From: Candidatus Gastranaerophilales bacterium
GTDB lineage: Bacteria > Cyanobacteriota > Vampirovibrionia > Gastranaerophilales > Gastranaerophilaceae
NCBI GenBank assembly: GCA_944325155.1
Contig: CALUYY010000013.1
Location: 1 to 39,818, forward strand
Direction: 5' to 3'
Length of the DNA: 39,818 nt
Under the pieces are notes generated by a model that did no database searches, was not told the DNA's origin, and worked only from the letters and a program-made list of their open reading frames with translations. The translations under genes and the position numbers were made by a program. Of the stretch, positions 7,439 through 18,954 are shown piece after piece (within the stretch, counting starts at the first letter, position 1; the number at the start of each line of letters is the position of its first letter).

Positions 7439-10021
7439 CTATATGCTGAACCTGAGCCCCAATTGAAGATAAGCGCCCTGCCTTCCGCAGTTTCTTATTG
7501 CGGTTTCAAAAAATGCGGTTAACTTTTCGGAGAATCTTTTTTGAAAGCCTATCCCGTATTGAACATACGGTTTAACCGATAAATAGGGAAGATTAATATC
7601 GTTTGCCCTGAATTTTGTTTTATCAAGTATATTCCATGCAAAAGAAGCAAAAATATAGGGCTGAAAATTATTCTCAAAATTTCCGATTAATTTTATCATC
7701 GGTTCAACGTGGATTGCGTTCAGGGGTTTTGTTTTAAAATTGAGATAAGATGTATCATAATCAAAAGTATTTATAAAAGCGTATGAGGTCATTATTGATG
7801 GTTGAATTATAAGGCGGTTATTAAAAGTTTTAAAATTAAAGCCCGTTTTTTGGGAAATGCCCGCATTAAATGTCGTAAATTCTTCTTTCATTTGATACCC
7901 TTTGGCATTTGATGAAAAGGCGCCCGAATCTATTGCAAAAAGAGAAAAGAAGTCTTTTTTATAAAATGCGCCGATAAGCCCGAACATTCCGCCGTTATTA
8001 TAAATATCGTTTCCAAAATATGATTGGTTAGAGCCGTTATATGAAATATACCCGCCAAAAAGCGCATAAATATCATCTTTTATATTTTTTAACCCCGTTT
8101 CATAACCCAGAATTGTTCCGTAGCCGATATTTGAAACATCAAACCCGTTTTTAAAAGGAACTTCTTCAAATAATGAATAAGGTTTAAACCAGAGCCCTTT
8201 ATGAATCTCGGGGATTTTATAATAATTTATGTTTAAAAATCTATCCGAATTTGTTTTATTATCAAAACCAAACGCCGATAATCCATTTTGAGGGTTAATC
8301 CTTACCATATCAAGATTTGAAAAAACATTTTTAAAAGTATCAATCTGTGTTAAATATCCGCCCGTTTGTGCGGCAATTGAAGAAGATAAAATTGAAGGGT
8401 TAAAATTTTTCCTCTCAAATATAAAATTTCCGTTATTTGAATTGTAACTTGCGCTGTATTCAAATATAGGGGTGGAGATTTTTGTTTCGTCATATTTTAT
8501 ATAATCTTTTAAAATTGAATTTGAAAAAGGAATTTCTCTGTATTTTTCATGCGGTGCGCCTTCTATTTTTAAATTTTTAACAAGAATTTCACCAAAACCG
8601 TTTATGCTGTCGGCAGAAATTGTATCCATTAAATTCAAATTCAAGTTGACATCGGGGTATATATTGACAAGTCCTTCAATATTTAAATTATTAAATGAAA
8701 CATTATCTATCGTTGAATTTTGAAGATTAAGGCTTACGTTATTTGAAAAATAGTTATCGGTTGCGCCAAAATACGTAGAATCGGGTAAAAGATTAACAAT
8801 ACCCTCCCTAAAATAAAAATCTCCCTTAAAATCAAGGTTTTCTCCGCCAAGATTAAGGGTTGAAAAATTGTTAATTTCTCCGTAGCCTTTTATTCCGCTT
8901 AAAATTGCCGAAACCTTGCCGTTAAAATTAATTACCGCATTTTGAGCGTTAAAAATATCGTTTTTTATGTTGTCTTTTTCAAAATTGTTTTTAAAAGTCG
9001 AATTTTCAATATTTAAAACCCCCGAATTATAAACTGCTCCGCCTAATGATTCAATTGCATTTGATGTGCGGTTATTTTCAAGAGTTGAATTTATTATTGT
9101 AAGAATTTTCCCCGTATTATTATAAATAGCGCCGCCGACGGAATAAGAATTTGAAGAAGTTGAATTTGAATTCAGAATTGAATTTTCAATTTCAAGATTT
9201 CCGTTGTTAAAAACAGCACCGCCGAAAGCAAAGGCATCGGGCGCTAAAATATAATTATTTTCAATAAGAGAATTAGAAATTTTTATATTATCGTTATTAT
9301 AAATTGCGCCCCCGTATGCAAAAGAACCGCTTTCGCCCGAGACATAATTATCATAGATAAGAGTATTATTAATATCCAAATTTCCTTCGTTATAAATTGC
9401 ACCCCCGTACGGAGTAACGGAGCCCGTTGAATAATTGTTGTAAAAAACGGAATCCGATATTGTCATATCGGCTTTTTGACCTTCTCTGTATCCGTTTGCA
9501 ACGGCGCCGCCGTATGATGATGCGCCTTTTGTATAATTATTTTGAAAAAGCACGGAATTAATTTTCATATCGGCTCCGTTTAAATTGTAAATTGCACCGC
9601 CGACACCGAAATTGAACCCTTTGGCGTCAACAAAATTGTTATTAAAAACGGATGTATCAATTGTTATGTTTCCGCCGCTGTTAAAAATCGCACCCGCAAA
9701 ATAAGAACTTGAATATTCCTGCCCGAGACAATTTCGCATAACCATTGTTTTAAAGCTGCTGTCTTTATTTAAAATAAATCCGCCAAACGTACTTTTCCCG
9801 TCTATATAATAATCGTTTCCGAAAAAATCAATGTTTAAATTTAAAAAATTGTTTCCTATCGTTTGATTTGAATCTAAATTGTTTTCTAAAATGATGGTGT
9901 CGCCCGATTTGGGGTTTGAATTTATAAGAGAATTAAAATTATATACTTCAATATTATCTGCAATTGAAGGGTTTTGAAATAAAAAGAAAATTAAAAATAA
10001 TATTTTTTTATAACGGGGCAT
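7439..10021 (-). CDS. Autotransporter / polymorphic-membrane-protein-like surface protein
   Basis: 860 residues. A signal peptide (RYKKILFLIFFLFQNPSIA) is followed by at least seven beta-helix repeats of about 33-36 residues with the recurring motif GGA[IV][YF]N or GGAVANG and N-N-Y/N-S-T-L/F steps, as in chlamydial Pmp and parallel beta-helix passengers (residues ~75-360). The last ~250 residues, from GLWFKPYSLFEE to AYLQLGLRFSI, look like an autotransporter beta-barrel, with alternating amphipathic strands and an aromatic-rich end (terminal residue Ile, not Phe). It should be displayed on the outer membrane, perhaps as an adhesin. The start at 10021 is chosen for the signal peptide. No Shine-Dalgarno site is visible; a TATAAT lies four bases upstream. 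Confidence 0.85.
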   Translation of the reverse strand: MPRYKKILFLIFFLFQNPSIADNIEVYNFNSLINSNPKSGDTIILENNLDSNQTIGNNFLNLNIDFFGNDYYIDGKSTFGGFILNKDSSFKTMVMRNCLGQEYSSSYFAGAIFNSGGNITIDTSVFNNNFVDAKGFNFGVGGAIYNLNGADMKINSVLFQNNYTKGASSYGGAVANGYREGQKADMTISDSVFYNNYSTGSVTPYGGAIYNEGNLDINNTLIYDNYVSGESGSFAYGGAIYNNDNIKISNSLIENNYILAPDAFAFGGAVFNNGNLEIENSILNSNSTSSNSYSVGGAIYNNTGKILTIINSTLENNRTSNAIESLGGAVYNSGVLNIENSTFKNNFEKDNIKNDIFNAQNAVINFNGKVSAILSGIKGYGEINNFSTLNLGGENLDFKGDFYFREGIVNLLPDSTYFGATDNYFSNNVSLNLQNSTIDNVSFNNLNIEGLVNIYPDVNLNLNLMDTISADSINGFGEILVKNLKIEGAPHEKYREIPFSNSILKDYIKYDETKISTPIFEYSASYNSNNGNFIFERKNFNPSILSSSIAAQTGGYLTQIDTFKNVFSNLDMVRINPQNGLSAFGFDNKTNSDRFLNINYYKIPEIHKGLWFKPYSLFEEVPFKNGFDVSNIGYGTILGYETGLKNIKDDIYALFGGYISYNGSNQSYFGNDIYNNGGMFGLIGAFYKKDFFSLFAIDSGAFSSNAKGYQMKEEFTTFNAGISQKTGFNFKTFNNRLIIQPSIMTSYAFINTFDYDTSYLNFKTKPLNAIHVEPMIKLIGNFENNFQPYIFASFAWNILDKTKFRANDINLPYLSVKPYVQYGIGFQKRFSEKLTAFFETAIRNCGRQGAYLQLGLRFSI

Positions 10022-10053
10022 AAAAATTATATTATTTTTTAAAATATAAATTT

Positions 10054-10075
10054 CTATTACCCGTAAAGGTAATAG
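10054..10075. repeat. Perfect 8-bp inverted repeat upstream of the autotransporter gene
   Basis: CTATTACC and GGTAATAG are separated by six bases. The element sits between the arg-operon terminator and the autotransporter start, about 33-54 bases before the ATG. It could be an operator or an RNA hairpin; it has no U-tract of its own. Confidence 0.45.
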
Positions 10076-10104
10076 CATAAAAAAGGAGTCAAGTGGCTCC
10101 TTTT
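10075..10104 (-). terminator. Rho-independent terminator of the arginine operon
   Basis: On the minus strand AAAAGGAG and CTCCTTTT pair around an eight-base loop and run into TTTTTTATGC. The hairpin begins 11 bases after the argD stop and closes the seven-gene arg operon before the autotransporter gene. Confidence 0.85.
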
Positions 10105-10115
10105 AATTAAAAATT

Positions 10116-11279
10116 TTATTTTAGGATTTCATTTAAGATATTATATGCAATATCCGCTTCTTTTTTTGTAATGATTAACGGCGGAAGAAGCCTTATGGTG
10201 TTTGAACCTGCGCTTAAAATCAAAAGACCTTTATCTTGAGCTTTTTTAATAATATCGGTTGGGGGAAAATCAACTTCAAGCCCTAATATAAGCCCCATAC
10301 CTTTTACTTTTTTAACGTTTTTAATTGTTTTTAATTTATCGGATAAATATTTACCCGTTTCTTTTACGTTTGATAAAAGGTTATTATTTATGATTTCATC
10401 AATAACGCTTATTCCCGCAACGCTTGCGATAAAATTTCCGCCGAATGTTGAAGCGTGGTCCGAGGGTTCAAAACAGGAGCAAAAATCTTTGGCGGCAACG
10501 GCACCGATTGGAATGCCGTTTCCTAAAGCTTTTGCCATGGATATGATATCGGGGAATTCTTCATAATTTTTTGCATAATTTTGATAAGCAAAAAACTCGC
10601 CCGTTCTTCCCATTCCAGTTTGAACTTCATCGACAATAAAAAGAGCGTTATATTGATTGCACGATTTTCTTATTGCGTCGTAAAATTCTTTATCCATTTG
10701 AATTATTCCGCCTTCACCCTGGATACATTCGGTTATAACGGCGCAAACATCGTTATCCATAATGTTTTCAAGAGCATTAATGTCGTTAAATTCAATATAT
10801 TCAACGTTTGGAACAAGGGGCAAAAATTTATTACGGTATTTTTCCTGCCCCGTAAGCGTTAAAGACCCCAGAGTTCTTCCGTGGAAAGAATTTTTCATTG
10901 CAACGATTTTATTTCCTTTTTTATTTAAAAGGGCATATTTTCTTGCAAGTTTAATTGAAGCCTCATTTGCTTCAGCTCCGGAGTTACAAAAGAAGAGTTT
11001 ATCTAACCCCGAAATTTCGGATATTTTTTTTGCAAGAACACCCTGAGGTTCGACATAAAAAAGATTTGATGAATGATTTATTTTATTTAATTGTTTTGTA
11101 ATTGAATCAATAAAATTTTTGTTTTTATACCCGAGCGCATTAACGGCAATTCCCGATACAAAATCAAGATATTTATTTCCTTTATCATCGAAAAGATATG
11201 CCCCTTCGCCGTGTTCAAAAGATATAGGGTATCTTTTATAAGTATTCATTACATATTTATTAAATTCGTTTTCATTCAT
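10116..11279 (-). CDS. argD: Acetylornithine aminotransferase
   Basis: 387-residue class-III PLP aminotransferase that converts N-acetylglutamate-5-semialdehyde to N-acetylornithine with glutamate. Visible landmarks are GEGAYLFDDKGNKYLDFVSG at the N-terminus, FFCNSGAEANEASIKLARKY (phosphate cup), FHGRTLGSL, IVDEVQTGMGRTG (PLP-ring aspartate) and SMAKALGNGIPIGA with the Schiff-base lysine. The start at 11279 is preferred: GAGGAAG lies just upstream and only one base separates it from the argB stop, whereas the ATG at 11294 lies inside argB. It is the last gene of the arg operon and probably also serves lysine synthesis, as many ArgD enzymes do. Confidence 0.93.
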   Translation of the reverse strand: MNENEFNKYVMNTYKRYPISFEHGEGAYLFDDKGNKYLDFVSGIAVNALGYKNKNFIDSITKQLNKINHSSNLFYVEPQGVLAKKISEISGLDKLFFCNSGAEANEASIKLARKYALLNKKGNKIVAMKNSFHGRTLGSLTLTGQEKYRNKFLPLVPNVEYIEFNDINALENIMDNDVCAVITECIQGEGGIIQMDKEFYDAIRKSCNQYNALFIVDEVQTGMGRTGEFFAYQNYAKNYEEFPDIISMAKALGNGIPIGAVAAKDFCSCFEPSDHASTFGGNFIASVAGISVIDEIINNNLLSNVKETGKYLSDKLKTIKNVKKVKGMGLILGLEVDFPPTDIIKKAQDKGLLILSAGSNTIRLLPPLIITKKEADIAYNILNEILK

Positions 11280-11280
11280 C

Positions 11281-12144
11281 TTATTCTTCCTCAATTATTG
11301 TTCCGATACCGTCTTTTGTATAAATTTCAAGAAGGATTGAATGTAAAATTTTGCCGTTTATTATATGCACGGATTCAACCCCCTCTTTTACCGCCTTAAT
11401 GCAGCAGTTGACTTTCGGTATCATTCCGCCTTTAATTGTTCCGTTTTGAATTAAAAGATTTATTTCTTCAGGAATTAATTCCGATATCAGGGAATTCGGG
11501 TCGTATTCTTTAAATAAAACGCCGTCGGTGTCGGTTAAAAATACGAGTTTTTTAGCACTCAGCGCTATTGCAATTTCAACGGCGGCGGAATCTGCGTTTA
11601 TGTTATACGTATTTGCGTCTTTATCGGTGCCGACCGGCGATATGACGGGGATAAAATCCGATTTTATAAGGCTTTCTATGACGCCCGTGTTTACTTTTGT
11701 AATTTCACCAACCAGCCCCAAATCAACATTTTCCGTTATTTTTTTCTTTGCTTCAATTAAAAGCCCGTCTTTACCGGAAATTCCGACCGCTTTTGTATCG
11801 TGTTTTTGAAATTCGGATACGATTGATTTATTGATTTTACCCGACAATACTGATTCAACGATTTTCATTGTTTCAATGTCCGTTACCCTTAAACCGTCCA
11901 CAAATTTGGGTTTAATTCCAGCAAGTTTCAAGCCTTCGTTAATCTCGGGCCCGCCTCCGTGGACAATAACGGGATTAATTCCGACCATTTTCATAAAAGC
12001 AATGTCGCCTATGACGGAATGTTTTAGTTTAGGGTCCGTCATTGCGGCGCCGCCGTATTTTATTACGACCGTTTTACCGTGGAATTGGTTTATATAAGGC
12101 ATTGCCTCAATCAGTATGCTTGCTTTTTCTATATATTTTTGCAT
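11281..12144 (-). CDS. argB: Acetylglutamate kinase
   Basis: 287-residue amino-acid kinase that phosphorylates N-acetylglutamate. VVIKYGGAAMTDPKLKHS (residues ~27-44) is the phosphate-binding loop, PVIVHGGGPEINEGLKLAGI the acetylglutamate site and IKGGMIPKVNCCIKAVKEGV the C-terminal nucleotide lobe. An N-terminal helix of about 20 residues (QKYIEKASILIEAMPYINQF) precedes the catalytic core; such a helix is typical of hexameric, arginine-inhibited enzymes, which fits a cyclic pathway with ArgJ. Feedback control at the enzyme would therefore add to leader control of the operon. GAGGTAGATT supplies the ribosome binding site. Confidence 0.94.
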   Translation of the reverse strand: MQKYIEKASILIEAMPYINQFHGKTVVIKYGGAAMTDPKLKHSVIGDIAFMKMVGINPVIVHGGGPEINEGLKLAGIKPKFVDGLRVTDIETMKIVESVLSGKINKSIVSEFQKHDTKAVGISGKDGLLIEAKKKITENVDLGLVGEITKVNTGVIESLIKSDFIPVISPVGTDKDANTYNINADSAAVEIAIALSAKKLVFLTDTDGVLFKEYDPNSLISELIPEEINLLIQNGTIKGGMIPKVNCCIKAVKEGVESVHIINGKILHSILLEIYTKDGIGTIIEEE

Positions 12145-12156
12145 AATCTACCTCGT

Positions 12157-13404
12157 TTAGCTTCTGTATTCAGCGTTTATTTTTACGTAATCATAACTTA
12201 AATCACAGCCCCAGCCCGTGGCTTCAAAATCGCCTTCGTTTATTTGAATAAGAATTTTTATTTCTTTTTCTTTTAAAATTTTAAGGGCAAAATCTTCATC
12301 GAAAATAACAGGGGTTCCGTTTTCATAGAGCCTTATTATTCCTTTTTCGTTTTTAAAATCTATTGTTACTTTATCCGGGTCAAAATCAATTTCCGTTGCG
12401 CCCATAGCGGAAATTACCCTGCCCCAGTTGGCGTCCTCGCCAAAAAAAGCCGTTTTTACAAGGCTTGAATTTAAAATTGCTTTAACGAGAACTCTTGCGT
12501 CTTTTTTGGTTTTTGCGCCTTTAACGGTGCATTCGATAAATTTGCTTGCGCCTTCGCCGTCTTTTACTATGTCTTTTGCAAGCTCTCTCGTAACAATAAA
12601 AAGGGCTTTTTTAAATTTCTCAAAATCTTCGTCTTTTTTATTTATAATCGGGTTATTCGCCATTCCGTTAGCCAAAATTACCGCCATATCGTTTGTGCTT
12701 GTTTCGCCGTCAACGGTTATCATATTAAAAGAATCATCAATGTTTGATTTAAACGCTTCATCCAAAAGCTCTTTTTCAATATTTACATCGGTTGTAATAA
12801 AATTTAGCATTGTTGCCATATTCGGATGAATCATACCCGAACCTTTTGCAATGCCTGAAATTGTAACTTTTGTATTTTTAATTTCAATTTCAAGAGTGAT
12901 TTCTTTTTTAAAAGTATCCGTTGTTAAAATCCCCCGGGCACAGTTGTCGGCCGATTCATCATCATCATTCAGCAGGGGCACTAAATTTTTAATGCCTTCT
13001 TTTATTTTTTCTATCGGAAGAAAAACCCCTATAACACCCGTGGATGTTACCATAACGGAATTTTGAGGAATCGAGAGCATATCGGCCGCCGTTTTTGCCA
13101 TAACAAGAGCATCTTCATACCCCTTTTGCCCCGTGCAGGCGTTTGCATTTCCGCTGTTTATAACAATTGCCTGAATTTTTTCATTGTTTTTCGTTAATTT
13201 TTCACACCACCATAAAGGAGGAGCTTTAACGACATTTTTTGTATAGACTGCGGAGCATAAGGCAGGGGTTTTAGAATAGATTATTGATAAATCTTTTTTA
13301 TATTTTTTAACGCCCGAATGCAGCCCGCCCGATAAAAAACCTTTAGGTGCGGTAATTTTCGGCGTCAGATATTTTATATCGTTATTTTCTTTTGTATCGT
13401 TCAT
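12157..13404 (-). CDS. argJ: Bifunctional glutamate N-acetyltransferase / acetylornithine transacetylase
   Basis: 415 residues, the normal ArgJ length. The enzyme moves the acetyl group from N-acetylornithine to glutamate, closing the acetyl cycle. The self-cleavage site is visible in KGSGMIHPNMATMLNF (residues ~190-205): cleavage before the threonine of A-T-M-L exposes the catalytic Thr of the beta chain. Other landmarks are AVVINSGNANACTGQKG, VMVTSTGVIG and the C-terminal EATGWGCDLSYDYVKINAEY. No argA or argE is in the cluster, as expected when ArgJ recycles the acetyl group. AAGGAG precedes the ATG. Confidence 0.95.
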   Translation of the reverse strand: MNDTKENNDIKYLTPKITAPKGFLSGGLHSGVKKYKKDLSIIYSKTPALCSAVYTKNVVKAPPLWWCEKLTKNNEKIQAIVINSGNANACTGQKGYEDALVMAKTAADMLSIPQNSVMVTSTGVIGVFLPIEKIKEGIKNLVPLLNDDDESADNCARGILTTDTFKKEITLEIEIKNTKVTISGIAKGSGMIHPNMATMLNFITTDVNIEKELLDEAFKSNIDDSFNMITVDGETSTNDMAVILANGMANNPIINKKDEDFEKFKKALFIVTRELAKDIVKDGEGASKFIECTVKGAKTKKDARVLVKAILNSSLVKTAFFGEDANWGRVISAMGATEIDFDPDKVTIDFKNEKGIIRLYENGTPVIFDEDFALKILKEKEIKILIQINEGDFEATGWGCDLSYDYVKINAEYRS

Positions 13405-13417
13405 TTTTTCTCCTTTT

Positions 13418-14467
13418 TTAAGCAGGGAAAACTCCTGCCGTCATTAATCCTTCGGTTTCATCCAAATTAAATAATAAATTCATATTTTGTACGGCCTGCC
13501 CTGCGGCGCCCTTAACAAGATTATCGATTGAAGCGGATATTATAACATTATTTGTTCTTGAATCGGTAAAAATTCCGATGTCGATAAAATTTGTGCCCTT
13601 TGTCCATTTGGTTTCGGGGTAGATATTTTCTTTTAAAATTCTTACAAATTTTTCATTTTTATATTGTTCGATATAACAATCAAAAATATCTTTTTTGGTA
13701 ACGCCGTTATTTAATTTGGCATACGATGTCGCTAAAATGCCCCTGTTCATCGGAATTAAGTGCGGGGTAAATTGCAGGGTTATTTTTTTATTTAAAGCAA
13801 ATGATAATTCCTGTTCAATTTCGGGGGTGTGTCTGTGGGATGAAATTTTATAGGCTTTTATATTTTCATTTGTTTCACAGTAGTGAACACCTAAATTAAC
13901 GCCCCTGCCCGCTCCCGTTACGCCCGATTTAGCGTCAATTATGATTGAATTTGTATCAATTAAATTGTTTTTTACAAGAGGGTAAATTGATAAAATGGAA
14001 CATGTTGTATAACAGCCCGGGTTTGCAATTAATCTTGCGGTTTTAATTTTTTCCCGATAAATTTCAGGCAGTCCGTATACCGCTTCATTTAACAATTCGG
14101 GCGAAAAATGCTCAACGTTATACCATTTTTCATAAATTTCTTTGTCTTTTAATCTGAAATCGGCGCCCAGATCAATTACTTTTGAATTATATAAAACTTC
14201 TTTCGTTACCTTTTTACTTGCAATGCCATGCGGAAGCGCCAAAAATATAACGTCTGTTTCTTTTGAAATTTTATCCAGATTATCATCGGTGCATATAATA
14301 TCCGTTATTGAATTAAAGTTTTGATAGATATCCGAATATTTTTGGTCAAGATATGTTTTTGAAGTTAAATATTTAACTTCAACCGATTTATGGTTAAATA
14401 GGATTTTTGTTAATTCTTCGCCGGCGTATCCCGTTGAACCTATGATTGCGGCTTTTATTTTCTCCAT
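13418..14467 (-). CDS. argC: N-acetyl-gamma-glutamyl-phosphate reductase
   Basis: 349 residues, long (type 1) form. It reduces N-acetylglutamyl phosphate to the semialdehyde with NADPH. IKAAIIGSTGYAGEELTKIL is the dinucleotide-binding start, LALPHG the following strand, and ANPGCYTTCSILSIYPL (residue ~150) carries the catalytic cysteine. KSGVTGAGRG and HRHTPEIEQEL form the substrate side, the latter with the catalytic histidine. The gene begins two bases after argH and uses GAGGTATAAAA as ribosome binding site, overlapping the argH end. Confidence 0.95.
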   Translation of the reverse strand: MEKIKAAIIGSTGYAGEELTKILFNHKSVEVKYLTSKTYLDQKYSDIYQNFNSITDIICTDDNLDKISKETDVIFLALPHGIASKKVTKEVLYNSKVIDLGADFRLKDKEIYEKWYNVEHFSPELLNEAVYGLPEIYREKIKTARLIANPGCYTTCSILSIYPLVKNNLIDTNSIIIDAKSGVTGAGRGVNLGVHYCETNENIKAYKISSHRHTPEIEQELSFALNKKITLQFTPHLIPMNRGILATSYAKLNNGVTKKDIFDCYIEQYKNEKFVRILKENIYPETKWTKGTNFIDIGIFTDSRTNNVIISASIDNLVKGAAGQAVQNMNLLFNLDETEGLMTAGVFPA

Positions 14468-14469
14468 TT

Positions 14470-15864
14470 TTATACCTCGTTGTCTTTAAGCCAGTTTTTA
14501 TTTATTTCAATTACTTTTTTCATTGCCTCAATTGAAGGAGAGCCTATAACTTTTTTGGCGTTAATTGAATTTTTAAAATCTATTGCTTCATATATATCAT
14601 CTTCAAACAAAGGTGAAAACATTTTAAATTCATCTGTTGTAAGATTTGATATTGTTTTATTTTCTTTTATGCAATATGAAACAATGCTTCCCGAAACCTT
14701 GTGGGCATCTCTGAAGGGAAGATTTTTTTTAACAAGATAATCGGCAATATCCGTTGCGTCTATAAACCCTTGTTTTAGGGCATTAAACATATTGTCTTTA
14801 TTTATTTTCATTGTTTTTATAACAAGGGGAAGAATAAAAAGCGAATTTTTAATTGTGTTAATCGAGTCAAAAAGAGGCTCTTTATCTTCCTGCATATCTT
14901 TATTGTATGCAAGCGGAAGCCCTTTCATAACTGTTAAAATGTTAATTAAGGAACCGTATATTCTTCCCGTTTTTCCCCTTAAAAGTTCCATAATATCGGG
15001 ATTTTTCTTTTGAGGCATAATGGAGCTTCCGGTTGAATAAGAATCATCAAGTTCGACAAATTTAAATTCAAAACTTGACCAAATAATAATTTCTTCCGCC
15101 ATTCTGCTTATATGGGTCATAATAAGAGATATTGAAGATAAGGTTTCAATTATAAAATCTCTGTCGGAAACGGCATCCATTGAATTAAGGCAGATATCAT
15201 CAAAACCGAGATATCCGGCGGTTTTATATCTGTCTATATTATGAGGAGTTCCGCAAAGAGCGCAGGCACCGAGAGGCAGAATATTTACTCTTGAATAAGT
15301 ATCATCAAGCCTTTTTTTATCTCTTTTAAACATCTCAACGTATGCGCCCAGATGATGAGATAATGTTGTTGCCTGTGCTCTTTGAAGATGGGTGTATCCG
15401 GGCATTAAAGTTTCAAGGTTGTCGTCTTGCATTGAAATTAAGGTTTTAATTAAATTAATTAAAAGTTTTTGAATATTTCTGATTTCGTCTTTTAAATAAA
15501 GCCTTATATCAAGCGCCACCTGATCATTTCTGCTCCTTGCGGTATGGACTTTTTTGCCCGTGTCTCCGATTTTATCAACAAGCAGCTTTTCTATGAAGGT
15601 GTGAATGTCTTCATATTCAAAATCAAATTGAATTTTGCCTTCGTTTATTTCATTTAAAATTTGATTTAGAGCGTTTATGATTTTTTCTTTTTCTTCATTG
15701 GATATTATGTTTTGTTCAAATAACATTTTCGTGTGTGCAATTGAACCTAAAATGTCATATTTATATAAGACACAATCAAATGAAAGTGAAGAGTTAAAAT
15801 CGTTTGTTTTTTTATCAAGAGATTTTGAAAATCTTGAACCCCAAAGCTGCTTTGTTGATTCCAT
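14470..15864 (-). CDS. argH: Argininosuccinate lyase
   Basis: 464 residues. It splits argininosuccinate into arginine and fumarate, the last step of the pathway. The fumarase/aspartase signature GSSIMPQKKNPD near residue 280 holds the flexible loop with the catalytic serine. HTARSRNDQVALDIRLYL (residue ~107) and MPGYTHLQRAQATTLSHH (~155), with the general-base histidine, are the other conserved blocks. AAGGAG lies within the 3' end of argG, three bases separate the genes, and they are surely cotranscribed. Length and motifs are ordinary. Confidence 0.96.
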   Translation of the reverse strand: MESTKQLWGSRFSKSLDKKTNDFNSSLSFDCVLYKYDILGSIAHTKMLFEQNIISNEEKEKIINALNQILNEINEGKIQFDFEYEDIHTFIEKLLVDKIGDTGKKVHTARSRNDQVALDIRLYLKDEIRNIQKLLINLIKTLISMQDDNLETLMPGYTHLQRAQATTLSHHLGAYVEMFKRDKKRLDDTYSRVNILPLGACALCGTPHNIDRYKTAGYLGFDDICLNSMDAVSDRDFIIETLSSISLIMTHISRMAEEIIIWSSFEFKFVELDDSYSTGSSIMPQKKNPDIMELLRGKTGRIYGSLINILTVMKGLPLAYNKDMQEDKEPLFDSINTIKNSLFILPLVIKTMKINKDNMFNALKQGFIDATDIADYLVKKNLPFRDAHKVSGSIVSYCIKENKTISNLTTDEFKMFSPLFEDDIYEAIDFKNSINAKKVIGSPSIEAMKKVIEINKNWLKDNEV

Positions 15865-15867
15865 TTG

Positions 15868-17088
15868 TTATACAAGCTCCTTTACGTTGTTTTTCTTATT
15901 AACAAGTGCTCTTACCTTTAAGGGCAGACCGAAAAGATTTATAAAGCCTTCGGCGTCTTTGTGGTTATATAATTCGCCCGTGGTAAAGCTTGCCAATGAC
16001 TCATTATATAATGAATACGGCGATTTTGCGCCTGCGGGAATTATGTTTCCTTTATAGAGTTTCAATTTAACGGTTCCCGTTACGGTTTTTTGCGTTTCGT
16101 CAACAAAAGCAATCAATGCCTCCATTAAAGGAGTAAACCATTCGCCCGAATACGCAAGTTCGGCAAATTTGTTTGATACGATTGATTTAAAAGACTGCGT
16201 TTGTTTATCAAGACATAAATATTCAAGTTCCCTGTGAGCGGCGTATAAAATTGTTCCTCCGGGGGTTTCATAGACACCTCTTGATTTCATCCCGACTACT
16301 CTGTTTTCAACCAGATCTATCGTTCCGATTGCGTTTTTTCCGCCGATTTCATTTAATTTTTTAATCATGCCTGACGGAGAATAAGAATTGCCGTTAATTT
16401 TAACGGGGATTCCTTTTTCAAATTCAATTTCAATGTATTCGGGTTTGTCGGGCGCATTTTCGGGCGTAGTTGACAAGTGAAGAATTTTTTCGTAATCCGG
16501 TTCAATTGAAGGGTCTTCAAGCTCCAATCCTTCATGGGATAAGTGCCAGAGGTTTTTATCTCTTGAATAAGTATCGCCTTTTTTCATCGGGGCTTCAATG
16601 CCTCTTTTTTCAAGATATGCTATTTCGTCTTCTCTTGATTGGATATCCCAAATTCTCCACGGTGCAATGATTTTTAAATCGGGATCAAGAGCTTTGATTC
16701 CGAGTTCAAACCTTACCTGATCGTTTCCTTTGCCCGTTGCACCGTGGCAAATTGCGGTTGCGTTTTCTTTATGCGCAATTTCAACAAGTTTTTTTGCAAT
16801 TAAAGGTCTTGCAATTGAAGTTCCCAAAAGATATTTTCCTTCATAAACGGCATTTGCTTTCACGGTCGGATAAACGTAATCAACTACAAATTCATCTTCA
16901 ACATTTAAAAGATAATATTTAACAGCACCCGTTTTTATCGCTTTTTCTTCAAGACCGTCCGTTTCCGTTCCCTGTCCGACATCAACGCAGACGGCAACAA
17001 CATCGTAATCATAATTTTCTTTTAACCACGGAATGATAACCGTTGTATCCAAGCCGCCCGAGTAAGCTAAAATAACTTTTTCTTTCAT
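15868..17088 (-). CDS. argG: Argininosuccinate synthase
   Basis: 406 residues. It condenses citrulline and aspartate with ATP. The protein starts [20 protein letters not shown], with the N-type ATP pyrophosphatase loop [23 protein letters not shown] near residue 115 and the [16 protein letters not shown] block are further family signatures. The start at 17088 is chosen because AAGGAG lies ten bases before it and family members begin here; an ATG at 17139 would add a non-conserved leader reaching into argF. It follows argF by 11 bases. Confidence 0.96.
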
Positions 17089-17099
17089 CTTTTTCTCCT

Positions 17100-18041
17100 T
17101 TATTTTATAACTGATGCTAAAATTGCCATTTGTGCCCACATTCTGTTTTCCGCCTGATTGAATATTGGAGCTGAATATTTTTCAAAAGTTTCAAAGTCGA
17201 TTTCTTCGCCTTTGTGCGCAGGCAGACAGTGAAGAATAATTGAATTTTTATTTGCATTATTCATTAAATTTTCATTTATTTGATAACTTTTAAAAATTTC
17301 TTTTCTTTTTTCGTATTCGGCTTCCTGCCCCATTGATGTCCAAACGTCCGTATAAATTATATCGGCACCTTTTACACCTTGAAGGGGGTCGTTTACAATT
17401 TCAATGTTTGCGCCCGTTTTTTCGGCTATTTCTTTTGCCTTATTTAATTCATTTGTATCCGGCTCAAATCCTGCGGGACAGGATACCGTTATATCAATTC
17501 CGAATGAAGCACAGCCCGTTAAAAGACTGTTTGTAACGTTATTTCCGTCGCCCACATAATTTAATTTCAGGTTTTTATATGTTTTAAAAGTTTCATAAAT
17601 CGTAAGCAAATCCGCCATAATCTGGCAGGGGTGGGAAAGATCGGTCAGAGCATTTATAACGGGAATTGACGAATATTTTGCAAAAGTTTCAACGTCGCTG
17701 TGGGCAAAGGTTCTGATTGTAATTGCGTCGGCGTATTTTGAAATTACTCTTGATGTATCTTCAATCGATTCTCTTTTCCCGAGAATAATTTCATCCTGTT
17801 TTATGACGTATGAATTTCCGCCCAATTTTGCCATACCGATTTCAAAACTTAATCTTGTTCTTAAAGAGGGTTTTGAAAAATACATAACAAGATTTTTTCC
17901 CTTCAGGATGTCTGCGGGTTTATTATTTTTTATTTTTTTCTTTAATTCAAGCGCTAAATCAATCAGCCCTTTTAATTCATCGGGGGTAAAGTCTTCTAAA
18001 TTGATAAAGTGTTTGTTTTTTAAACTTTTAACCGTTTTCAT
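17100..18041 (-). CDS. argF: Ornithine carbamoyltransferase
   Basis: 313 residues. It joins carbamoyl phosphate and ornithine to give citrulline. [13 protein letters not shown] (residue ~55) is the carbamoyl-phosphate loop in its S-L-R-T-R form, [11 protein letters not shown] (~134) the H-P-C-Q loop, [10 protein letters not shown] and DVWTSMGQE the ornithine-side motifs, and [11 protein letters not shown] (~271) the catalytic H-C-L-P cysteine. It is the first gene of the arg operon, 19-26 bases downstream of the leader terminator's U-tract, and has an AAGGAGAAAAA ribosome binding site. Its transcription would be decided by the attenuator at 18061-18250. Confidence 0.96.
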
Positions 18042-18060: not shown

Positions 18061-18250
18061 TTACAAAAAAGCCTTATATGAATTTTAAGGTCATATAAGG
18101 CTTTATCAGATAAACTTTTTATAAAATAGAATTCTTTTAACTTTAGACAAAAGCGAGTATAAGACCTTAAAAATTGCGGTCTTGACGTCGGATTTGAGCT
18201 GTTGTTAAAGAAGTGTTTTTCAAAAATTTATTCCTTATTCAAAAGATAGG
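18061..18250 (-). promoter_or_regulatory. Arginine operon leader: ribosome-mediated attenuator (candidate)
   Basis: Four elements lie in order on the minus strand. (1) AAGACC (18183-18178), inside the leader-peptide codons, can pair with (2) GGTCTT (18166-18161). Element 2, extended to 18172-18158, can instead pair with (3) 18097-18083 over 14 of 15 positions, with one T-T mismatch. (3) overlaps the loop and the last seven bases of the 5' arm of the terminator: a perfect 14-base stem (18104-18091 with 18081-18068), nine-base loop, then TTTTTT. Pairings 1:2 plus terminator and 2:3 are mutually exclusive, as in classical amino-acid attenuators. Sequence complementarity is seen; the regulatory behaviour is inferred. 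Confidence 0.72.
18167..18223 (-). CDS. Arginine leader peptide, 18 residues, TTG start (candidate)
   Basis: Reading from TTG at 18223 gives MKNTSLTTAQIRRQDRNF and a TAA at 18169-18167. AAGGA (18236-18232) lies eight bases before the start. Arginine fills positions 12, 13 and 16 using CGA, CGT and CGC, codons that are rare here where AGA dominates. A ribosome waiting at codons 12-13 would cover attenuator element 1 and leave element 2 free; one reaching the stop codon would cover element 2. This placement is what an arginine-sensing leader needs. There is no ATG, so the start codon is the weakest part of the call. Confidence 0.6.
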   Translation of the reverse strand: MKNTSLTTAQIRRQDRNF

Positions 18251-18254
18251 TTTT

Positions 18255-18283
18255 ATTCTATATTTAAATTTAAATTTTTGCAA
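18255..18283 (-). promoter_or_regulatory. Promoter of the arginine operon
   Basis: On the minus strand TTGCAA (18283-18278) and TAGAAT (18260-18255) are separated by exactly 17 bases of A/T. Transcription would start near 18248-18250, giving a leader of about 200 bases that holds the peptide and the attenuator. Confidence 0.68.
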
Positions 18284-18378: not shown

Positions 18379-18954
18379 ATGAATGAAAACATTTCGGTTG
18401 CAATAGGCGTTTTAGCCGTATCGGTCATATTTTATTACATAGGATATATTAATTTAATTCAAAAAAGAAACAGTGTTCAGGAAGCGTTCTCCGGCATAAA
18501 CATTCAATTAAAAAAAAGATATGATTTAATTCCCAATATTTTAACAATAGCAAAAGCCTTTATGGACCATGAAAGAAATTTAATGGAAGAAATTACAAAA
18601 TTAAGAGCAAGGGCAATTGAATTGTCGGACAACATAAAAAACACCAAAGAAAAAATAAAACTTGACGGCGAAATTGCGTCCAAAATGGGGCAGATTATTG
18701 TTGCTATGGAAAATTATCCCGAATTAAAATCAAACGATGCAATGCTGGAAGCAATAAGGGCATATAAAGATGTTGAAGATAATATATCGGCGTCAAGAAG
18801 ATTTTATAATGCAGGGGTCAGAGAATTAAACAATATGACGGATATTTTCCCCTTAAGCCTTATAGCAAAAATCCATAACGTTGAAAGAGAAGAATATTTT
18901 AATACCGATGAAGATATAGACAAAGGTGTTGATGCGGCAAAATATTTAAAATAG
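18379..18954 (+). CDS. LemA family protein
   Basis: 191 residues. An N-terminal transmembrane helix (about residues 5-25) is followed by YINLIQKRNSVQEAFSGINI and KKRYDLIPNILTIAKAFMDH, the conserved LemA opening, and a mostly helical domain ending in the family's F-P-x-S-L-I-A--H segment (DIFPLSLIAKIHNVEREEYF). LemA proteins are membrane-anchored with the helical part probably outside the cytoplasm; their biochemical role is unsettled. It is followed ten bases later by the DUF3137 gene, a frequent LemA partner, so both likely act together. Confidence 0.9.
   Translation: MNENISVAIGVLAVSVIFYYIGYINLIQKRNSVQEAFSGINIQLKKRYDLIPNILTIAKAFMDHERNLMEEITKLRARAIELSDNIKNTKEKIKLDGEIASKMGQIIVAMENYPELKSNDAMLEAIRAYKDVEDNISASRRFYNAGVRELNNMTDIFPLSLIAKIHNVEREEYFNTDEDIDKGVDAAKYLK

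Follow-up and report, generated by a model that had tools for sequence, protein, structure and literature searches.

The arg operon of a Candidatus Gastranaerophilales genome raises the question of how arginine synthesis is controlled in this gut lineage within the Melainabacteria, which are relatives of the cyanobacteria. Control of arginine synthesis is usually assigned to ArgR/AhrC or to T-boxes, and trp, his, leu, ilv, thr and phe are the textbook cases of leader-peptide attenuation. We analysed a stretch of 39,818 nucleotides (hereafter the window), which constitutes contig 13 of a 1.88-Mb genome. Seven minus-strand genes follow one another in it, with very short gaps or overlaps: argF, which encodes ornithine carbamoyltransferase and would be the first controlled gene (17100–18041, TIGR00658), argG (15868–17088, TIGR00032), argH (14470–15864, TIGR00838), argC (13418–14467, TIGR01850), argJ (12157–13404, TIGR00120), argB (11281–12144, TIGR00761) and argD (10116–11279, TIGR00707), each matching its model above the cut-off. 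Immediately 3′ of argD lies the gene for an 879-aa protein (7439–10078, minus strand) with repeats and a C-terminal part that looks autotransporter-like, as judged from the translation. On the other side, a divergent gene adjoins the arg promoter (18379–18954, plus strand); we read its product as LemA-like, and its NCBIfam match to MamQ is weak (67 bits, with the cut-off at 250).

Neither of the usual arginine controls, which the original prediction had named as such, was detected here. ArgR (PF01316) was found above the cut-off in none of 60 genomes of the family and in none of 33 genomes with an arg operon, in a search that was positive in 9 of 14 control genomes; one genus (g19) gave weak sub-threshold matches. 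Neither the window nor 20 arg loci matched the T-box covariance model at the gathering score, and around the leader upstream of argF there was no match even at E ≤ 10. No other Rfam family was identified in the window and related arg loci; a search around the leader at a relaxed threshold yielded nothing but chance matches below the cut-off. Instead, we consider it highly likely that the whole argFGHCJBD operon is under the control of a ribosome-mediated transcription attenuator. The observations behind this reading are the anatomy of the leader, its recurrence in relatives, its codon choice, the rebuilding of its pairings from clade to clade and a position-dependent folding in modelled RNA. 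From these we infer that the leader is translated, that ribosomes stall on it, that it responds to arginine and that termination is arginine-dependent.

The original prediction had described a promoter, a short Arg-containing frame, two alternative pairings and a terminator, and every one of these elements proved to be in place on the minus strand, within 330 nt 5′ of argF. The −35 hexamer TTGCAA (18278–18283) is separated by 17 nt from the −10 hexamer TAGAAT (18255–18260), and the Shine-Dalgarno sequence AAGGA (18232–18236) precedes a TTG-started leader ORF of 18 codons (18167–18223), which encodes MKNTSLTTAQIRRQDRNF, ends in the stop codon 18169–18167 and has a counterpart in 21 other genomes. 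Arg codons occupy positions 12, 13 and 16 of this frame (CGA at 18190–18188, CGT at 18187–18185 and CGC at 18178–18176), the first two (18185–18190) being the putative regulatory codons. A hairpin overlaps the end of the frame; in it, segment 1 (AAGACC, 18178–18183) pairs with GGTCTT (18166–18161), which belongs to segment 2, the antiterminator strand (TTTTAAGGTCTTATA, 18158–18172). Alternatively, segment 2 can pair at 14 of 15 positions with segment 3 (TATATGACCTTAAAA, 18083–18097), which is common to the antiterminator and the terminator. The duplex between the antiterminator strand, taken from the leader's stop codon onwards, and the 5′ arm of the terminator has an energy of −19.6 kcal/mol (z = −5.2, p = 0.002 by shuffling). 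The intrinsic terminator itself (18068–18104, −16.2 kcal/mol) is a 14-bp hairpin with arms at 18104–18091 and 18081–18068, and its run of six T residues (18065–18070) shares three with the stem. This terminator is absent from the list produced by a generic scan because its loop measures 9 nt and the limit of the scan was 8 nt. When the leader RNA (201 nt) was folded as a whole, it was more stable than dinucleotide shuffles (z = −3.8), none of 200 shuffles being equally stable.

According to the proposed mechanism, RNA polymerase would start from the promoter near 18283–18255 and a ribosome would enter the 18-codon leader. If arginyl-tRNA for CGH codons (tRNA-Arg with anticodon ACG) were scarce, the ribosome would stall on CGA-CGT at codons 12–13 and mask segment 1. 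Segment 2 would then be available to pair with segment 3, no terminator would form and the operon would be transcribed. With ample arginyl-tRNA the ribosome would reach the stop codon at 18169–18167 and mask segment 2; segment 3 would then pair with segment 4, and transcription would stop near 18065–18062. The geometry of the leader is in accordance with this scheme, since the edge of a ribosome on codon 12 would fall at about 18178, where segment 1 stops, and that of a ribosome on the stop codon at about 18157, where segment 2 stops.

Folding of full leaders at equilibrium favours the terminator in most species, and the switch is not visible there. Therefore the switch must be kinetic and operate through co-transcriptional timing, a reliance that is usual for attenuators. 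We modelled this as the probability that the 5′ arm of the terminator is captured before its 3′ arm has been made, with an assumed footprint that sets the edge of the ribosome 13 nt beyond the first Arg codon. Capture amounted to 0.49–1.00 with the ribosome on the Arg codon and to 0.00–0.50 with the ribosome on the stop codon (means of 81% and 16%, respectively); for the leader in the window the values were 98% and 37%. The contrast between a ribosome stalled at codons 12–13 and one at the stop codon, as originally claimed, was thus reproduced by the modelled positions in all 22 leaders. The fraction of shuffled spacers giving capture at least as high as that observed was 0.00–0.01 for the 11 leaders outside genus g19 and 0.10–0.23 within it.

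Among sampled genomes with readable upstream DNA, 22 from two families, that of the window included, carry a short Arg-containing ORF upstream of the arg operon. These are draft genomes, and the sequences of one genus are not independent of each other. Examples are MKNISLKIAELRRQGLR, MKNLTLNKTQYTELRQSRFVFISAEFGV and MKTVTSTTQLRRSIL in the same genus and MNNKIIFTTELRRRNLF in another family, with MKKVANKIQLRRSRSNQVLNRVI, MKTITFTIQARRSIPYIECGIVL and MKTVFDTTEIRRGIH from further relatives. In genus g19, where the leaders are MKKLQQVRFIRRRLIRLESY and variants of it, the gene order is argCJBDGHF and the leader stands before argC, the new first gene. At the loci that we read, the leader occurs only before the arginine operon, which it follows through rearrangement. 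In most of the 22 genomes the ORF comprises 15–28 codons and has an SD-like motif (AGG or GGA) on its 5′ side, G007 having none and G021 only a weak one, and TTGCAA or TTGACA with a spacing of 16–17 nt is found upstream of most relatives' leaders. The leader ATG of G007 (L006, about 1330–1500) lies 7 nt after the −10 box, with no Shine-Dalgarno sequence, and this peptide is possibly translated from a leaderless message.

The Arg codons are adjacent, as RR or RRR, in 21 of the 22 leaders, the remaining one (G007) reading Arg-Gln-Ser-Arg; the pair begins at codon 11 or 12, again in 21 of 22. Outside the pair the peptides diverge between clades, and the residues before and after it vary freely. 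Relatives thus keep Arg codons in the short frame, as the original prediction implied, with one amendment: the pair or triplet is conserved and the third Arg codon, at position 16, is not, so that by comparison of the leaders the putative control element consists of the pair or triplet only. Coding selection as judged by pN/pS is weak (0.88 in frame compared with 1.45 and 1.68 out of frame), as the leaders diverge outside the Arg pair. A scan of 38 terminators near gene starts in arg loci of Gastranaerophilales returned RR 18 times, with KK and QQ next (5). Among 203 terminators taken from arg loci across many phyla, this dipeptide came up 8 times, next to AA (13), SS (9), LL (9) and PP (8); RR frames are not enriched in arg loci elsewhere, where their level is that of other dipeptides.

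After most leader ORFs comes a hairpin with an energy of about −14 to −26 kcal/mol and a T-run, which lie before the argF or argC RBS without overlapping it. The terminator between the leader and the first gene is strong in 19 of the 22 genomes; G003 has one of moderate strength, G379 (genus g35) a poor one and G325 a short one. Those of G003 and G379 were located by hand, the automatic finder having missed or misplaced both. At the two loci of genus g35 (L023 and L030, in G379 and G369) the terminators before argF are weak and the T-run is poor. G379 retains the Arg leader and the antiterminator strand, and the contig of G369 stops too early to show them. Control in this genus may have decayed or shifted to another step.

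For each leader, the region 3′ of the Arg codons was then paired with the 5′ arm of the terminator and compared with shuffled sequences. Every leader tested outside genus g19 gave p values of 0.002–0.026 for the duplex of strands 2 and 3, whereas in g19 they were 0.08–0.39 species by species and the antiterminators are modest. The antiterminator strength of g19 and the terminators of g35 are weak points in the case for attenuation, as are the moderate terminator of G003, the unusual start of the G007 leader and the draft state of the genomes. Since the sequences of both strands differ between clades, we carried out a swap test in which strand 2 of one leader per clade was combined with strand 3 of another. 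The native combinations total −119.5 kcal/mol, as against a mean of −70.7 (sd 11.5) for permutations, only 2 of 5040 of which were as low. This amounts to compensatory change, measured across whole strands: as expected under the original prediction the pairings covary, in that each clade rebuilds them with other sequences and native duplexes far exceed cross-clade swaps.

We also examined which codons specify the conserved arginines. Without exception, the regulatory Arg codons of the 21 leaders counted (54 of 54) are CGA, CGC or CGT, with CGC replacing CGA in several species; other Arg codons in the same leaders are mainly AGA (23 of 27). In the 37 genes of the window, CGH accounts for 31 of 321 Arg codons (9.7%), AGA being the commonest (218) and CGA the rarest (2). 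The CGHCGH hexamer is not rare in the window (108 observed, 71 expected) and is therefore uninformative on its own; it gains meaning in frame and within leaders. CGH codons are decoded by tRNA-Arg(ACG), and the tRNA-Arg set that was found has four members, one with anticodon ACG besides TCT, CCT and CCG. The leaders thus seem to monitor a single minor isoacceptor, tRNA-Arg(ACG). According to the selective-charging theory, an abundant isoacceptor whose codons are seldom used remains charged (PMC1183508). Combined with the exclusive use of rare CGH codons, the theory leads us to predict a low level of tRNA-Arg(ACG), as the choice of CGH would make sense only if this tRNA were also scarce. If the attenuator operates as proposed, it would allow the selective-charging idea (PMC1183508) to be tested in a natural setting.

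The same codons could be read in another way, as a timer. A pair containing CGA might be slow, owing to slow inosine-adenosine decoding or to scarce tRNA-Arg(ACG), and would then report the rate of translation or the state of one isoacceptor rather than the supply of arginine. The regulatory codons are indeed exactly the rare CGH class, and a single tRNA-Arg(ACG) was found. However, the use of CGC in several species means that slowness of CGA itself is not required, and the restriction of the leader to the arginine operon at the loci read, through rearrangement, is at odds with a general timer. Moreover, the upstream regions of hisG and trpE in this genome contain no leader ORF with a terminator and no comparable tandem-codon frame; within what was sampled, attenuators of this type are therefore no general feature of the genome. 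We regard the timer as improbable, although it is the least improbable of the alternatives. Slightly less probable still is an action of the ORF and hairpins on translation of the first gene or on mRNA stability rather than on transcription. The weak terminators of genus g35 would suit such a mode, and there are precedents in Salmonella speF, where Rho and RNase G act after a similar Arg-Arg frame (PMC6386406), and in S. aureus rbfL, which works by RBS occlusion (PMC13009471). The position of hairpin and T-run in most leaders, clear of the RBS, nevertheless speaks for transcription.

Nascent-peptide arrest of the SpeFL or fungal AAP type, in which the leader peptide would bind arginine or ornithine within the exit tunnel and thereby stall the ribosome, seems to us very unlikely. 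SpeFL/ORF34, too, has Arg-Arg as its conserved core (PMC6386406), but no peptide segment except the Arg pair is common to the clades, and stalling on excess arginine would raise expression when arginine is abundant, which is the wrong direction for a biosynthetic operon. A plain terminator that happens to follow a spurious short frame is scarcely credible. Short frames are common in AT-rich DNA, and a loose SD-start-CGHCGH pattern does not discriminate in this genome (63 matches compared with 42 in the control); against this stand 22 genomes with a leader, CGH-only codons, a fixed Arg position and rebuilt pairings, and in practice the comparative data refute chance.

The preferred reading, ribosome-mediated attenuation, follows the trp/his/leu logic that had been claimed for this locus, and it is supported in its canonical form: a leader ORF, tandem cognate codons, a terminator, an antiterminator that shares a strand with it (weak in g19) and the appropriate geometry are all present. 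As in the trp, his, leu, thr and phe attenuators (TrpL, HisL, LeuL), a short translatable leader, in which codons for the end product stand in tandem, is coupled to a mutually exclusive antiterminator and intrinsic terminator, with the position of the ribosome as the switch. Here, in contrast, the amino acid is arginine, the target is the arg operon, the host belongs to the Cyanobacteriota/Melainabacteria and there is no sequence similarity. A list of E. coli leader peptides has no arginine member (quoted in PMC7815308), and a survey of control at the RNA level lists arginine among the pathways under T-boxes (PMC1262725). The original prediction knew of no such arginine leader in this lineage; our search of the open-access literature likewise found no earlier report, nor any arginine biosynthetic operon under leader-peptide attenuation. 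The proposed mechanism is canonical; what is new, judged from the open literature, are the amino acid, the operon and the lineage.

Several known leaders resemble this one in part. The speF leader of Salmonella and E. coli (ORF34, SpeFL) likewise senses arginine through a small upstream ORF, whose codons 12 and 13 both specify Arg (PMC6386406). It differs in its target, ornithine decarboxylase, in acting through Rho, RBS unfolding and RNase G, and in its conserved peptide (DUF2618), whereas the arg leader has an intrinsic terminator and precedes a biosynthetic operon. The arg leaders have only the Arg pair in common, and the SpeFL/ORF34 core (HIRRT...HIMM) beyond that pair is absent from them. 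In S. aureus rbfL, rare Arg codons in a leader ORF make ribosomes pause under arginine limitation (PMC13009471), but the codons are AGA/AGG, RBS occlusion lowers translation of a biofilm regulator and there is no terminator switch. uORFC-8-2, also found by comparison, is the cysS leader of Rhodobacterales, with tandem cognate codons at about 14–15 and an intrinsic terminator (PMC8632094); it differs in concerning cysteine, a tRNA synthetase gene and alphaproteobacteria. If correct, our reading would fill the arginine gap in leader-peptide attenuation.

Finally, we considered how operon and leader are distributed. Within the genus, 7 of 9 genomes contain argF and the other two only a distant carbamoyltransferase, and an argF match was obtained in 23 of 383 sampled genomes of family f1. 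Arginine synthesis therefore looks sporadic, and most sampled members of the family may be arginine auxotrophs; the attenuator, if real, would explain how the pathway is regulated in a gut lineage with few arginine-synthesising members among the genomes sampled. The upstream regions of argF that were read in families f2, f3 and f4 and in Brachyspira contain no leader. On the argF tree, leader-bearing genes form one group (support 85/81) with the leaderless Brachyspira genes inside it, a topology that fits one putative gain and one loss of the leader when the root is placed at the midpoint. G003 and G021, the latter from another family, both carry a leader and do not group with their named relatives; from this one gene tree, it would seem that the attenuator travels with the operon. 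The chances seem to us about even that a portable attenuator has replaced ArgR for the whole group, reads the charging of tRNA-Arg(ACG) through otherwise avoided CGH codons and has moved between species with the operon. In Brachyspira (L088 and L089), argF at 9001–9936 is followed by argG and argH and falls within the Gastranaerophilales argF clade, with no attenuator; this argF was probably acquired by gene transfer between gut bacteria.
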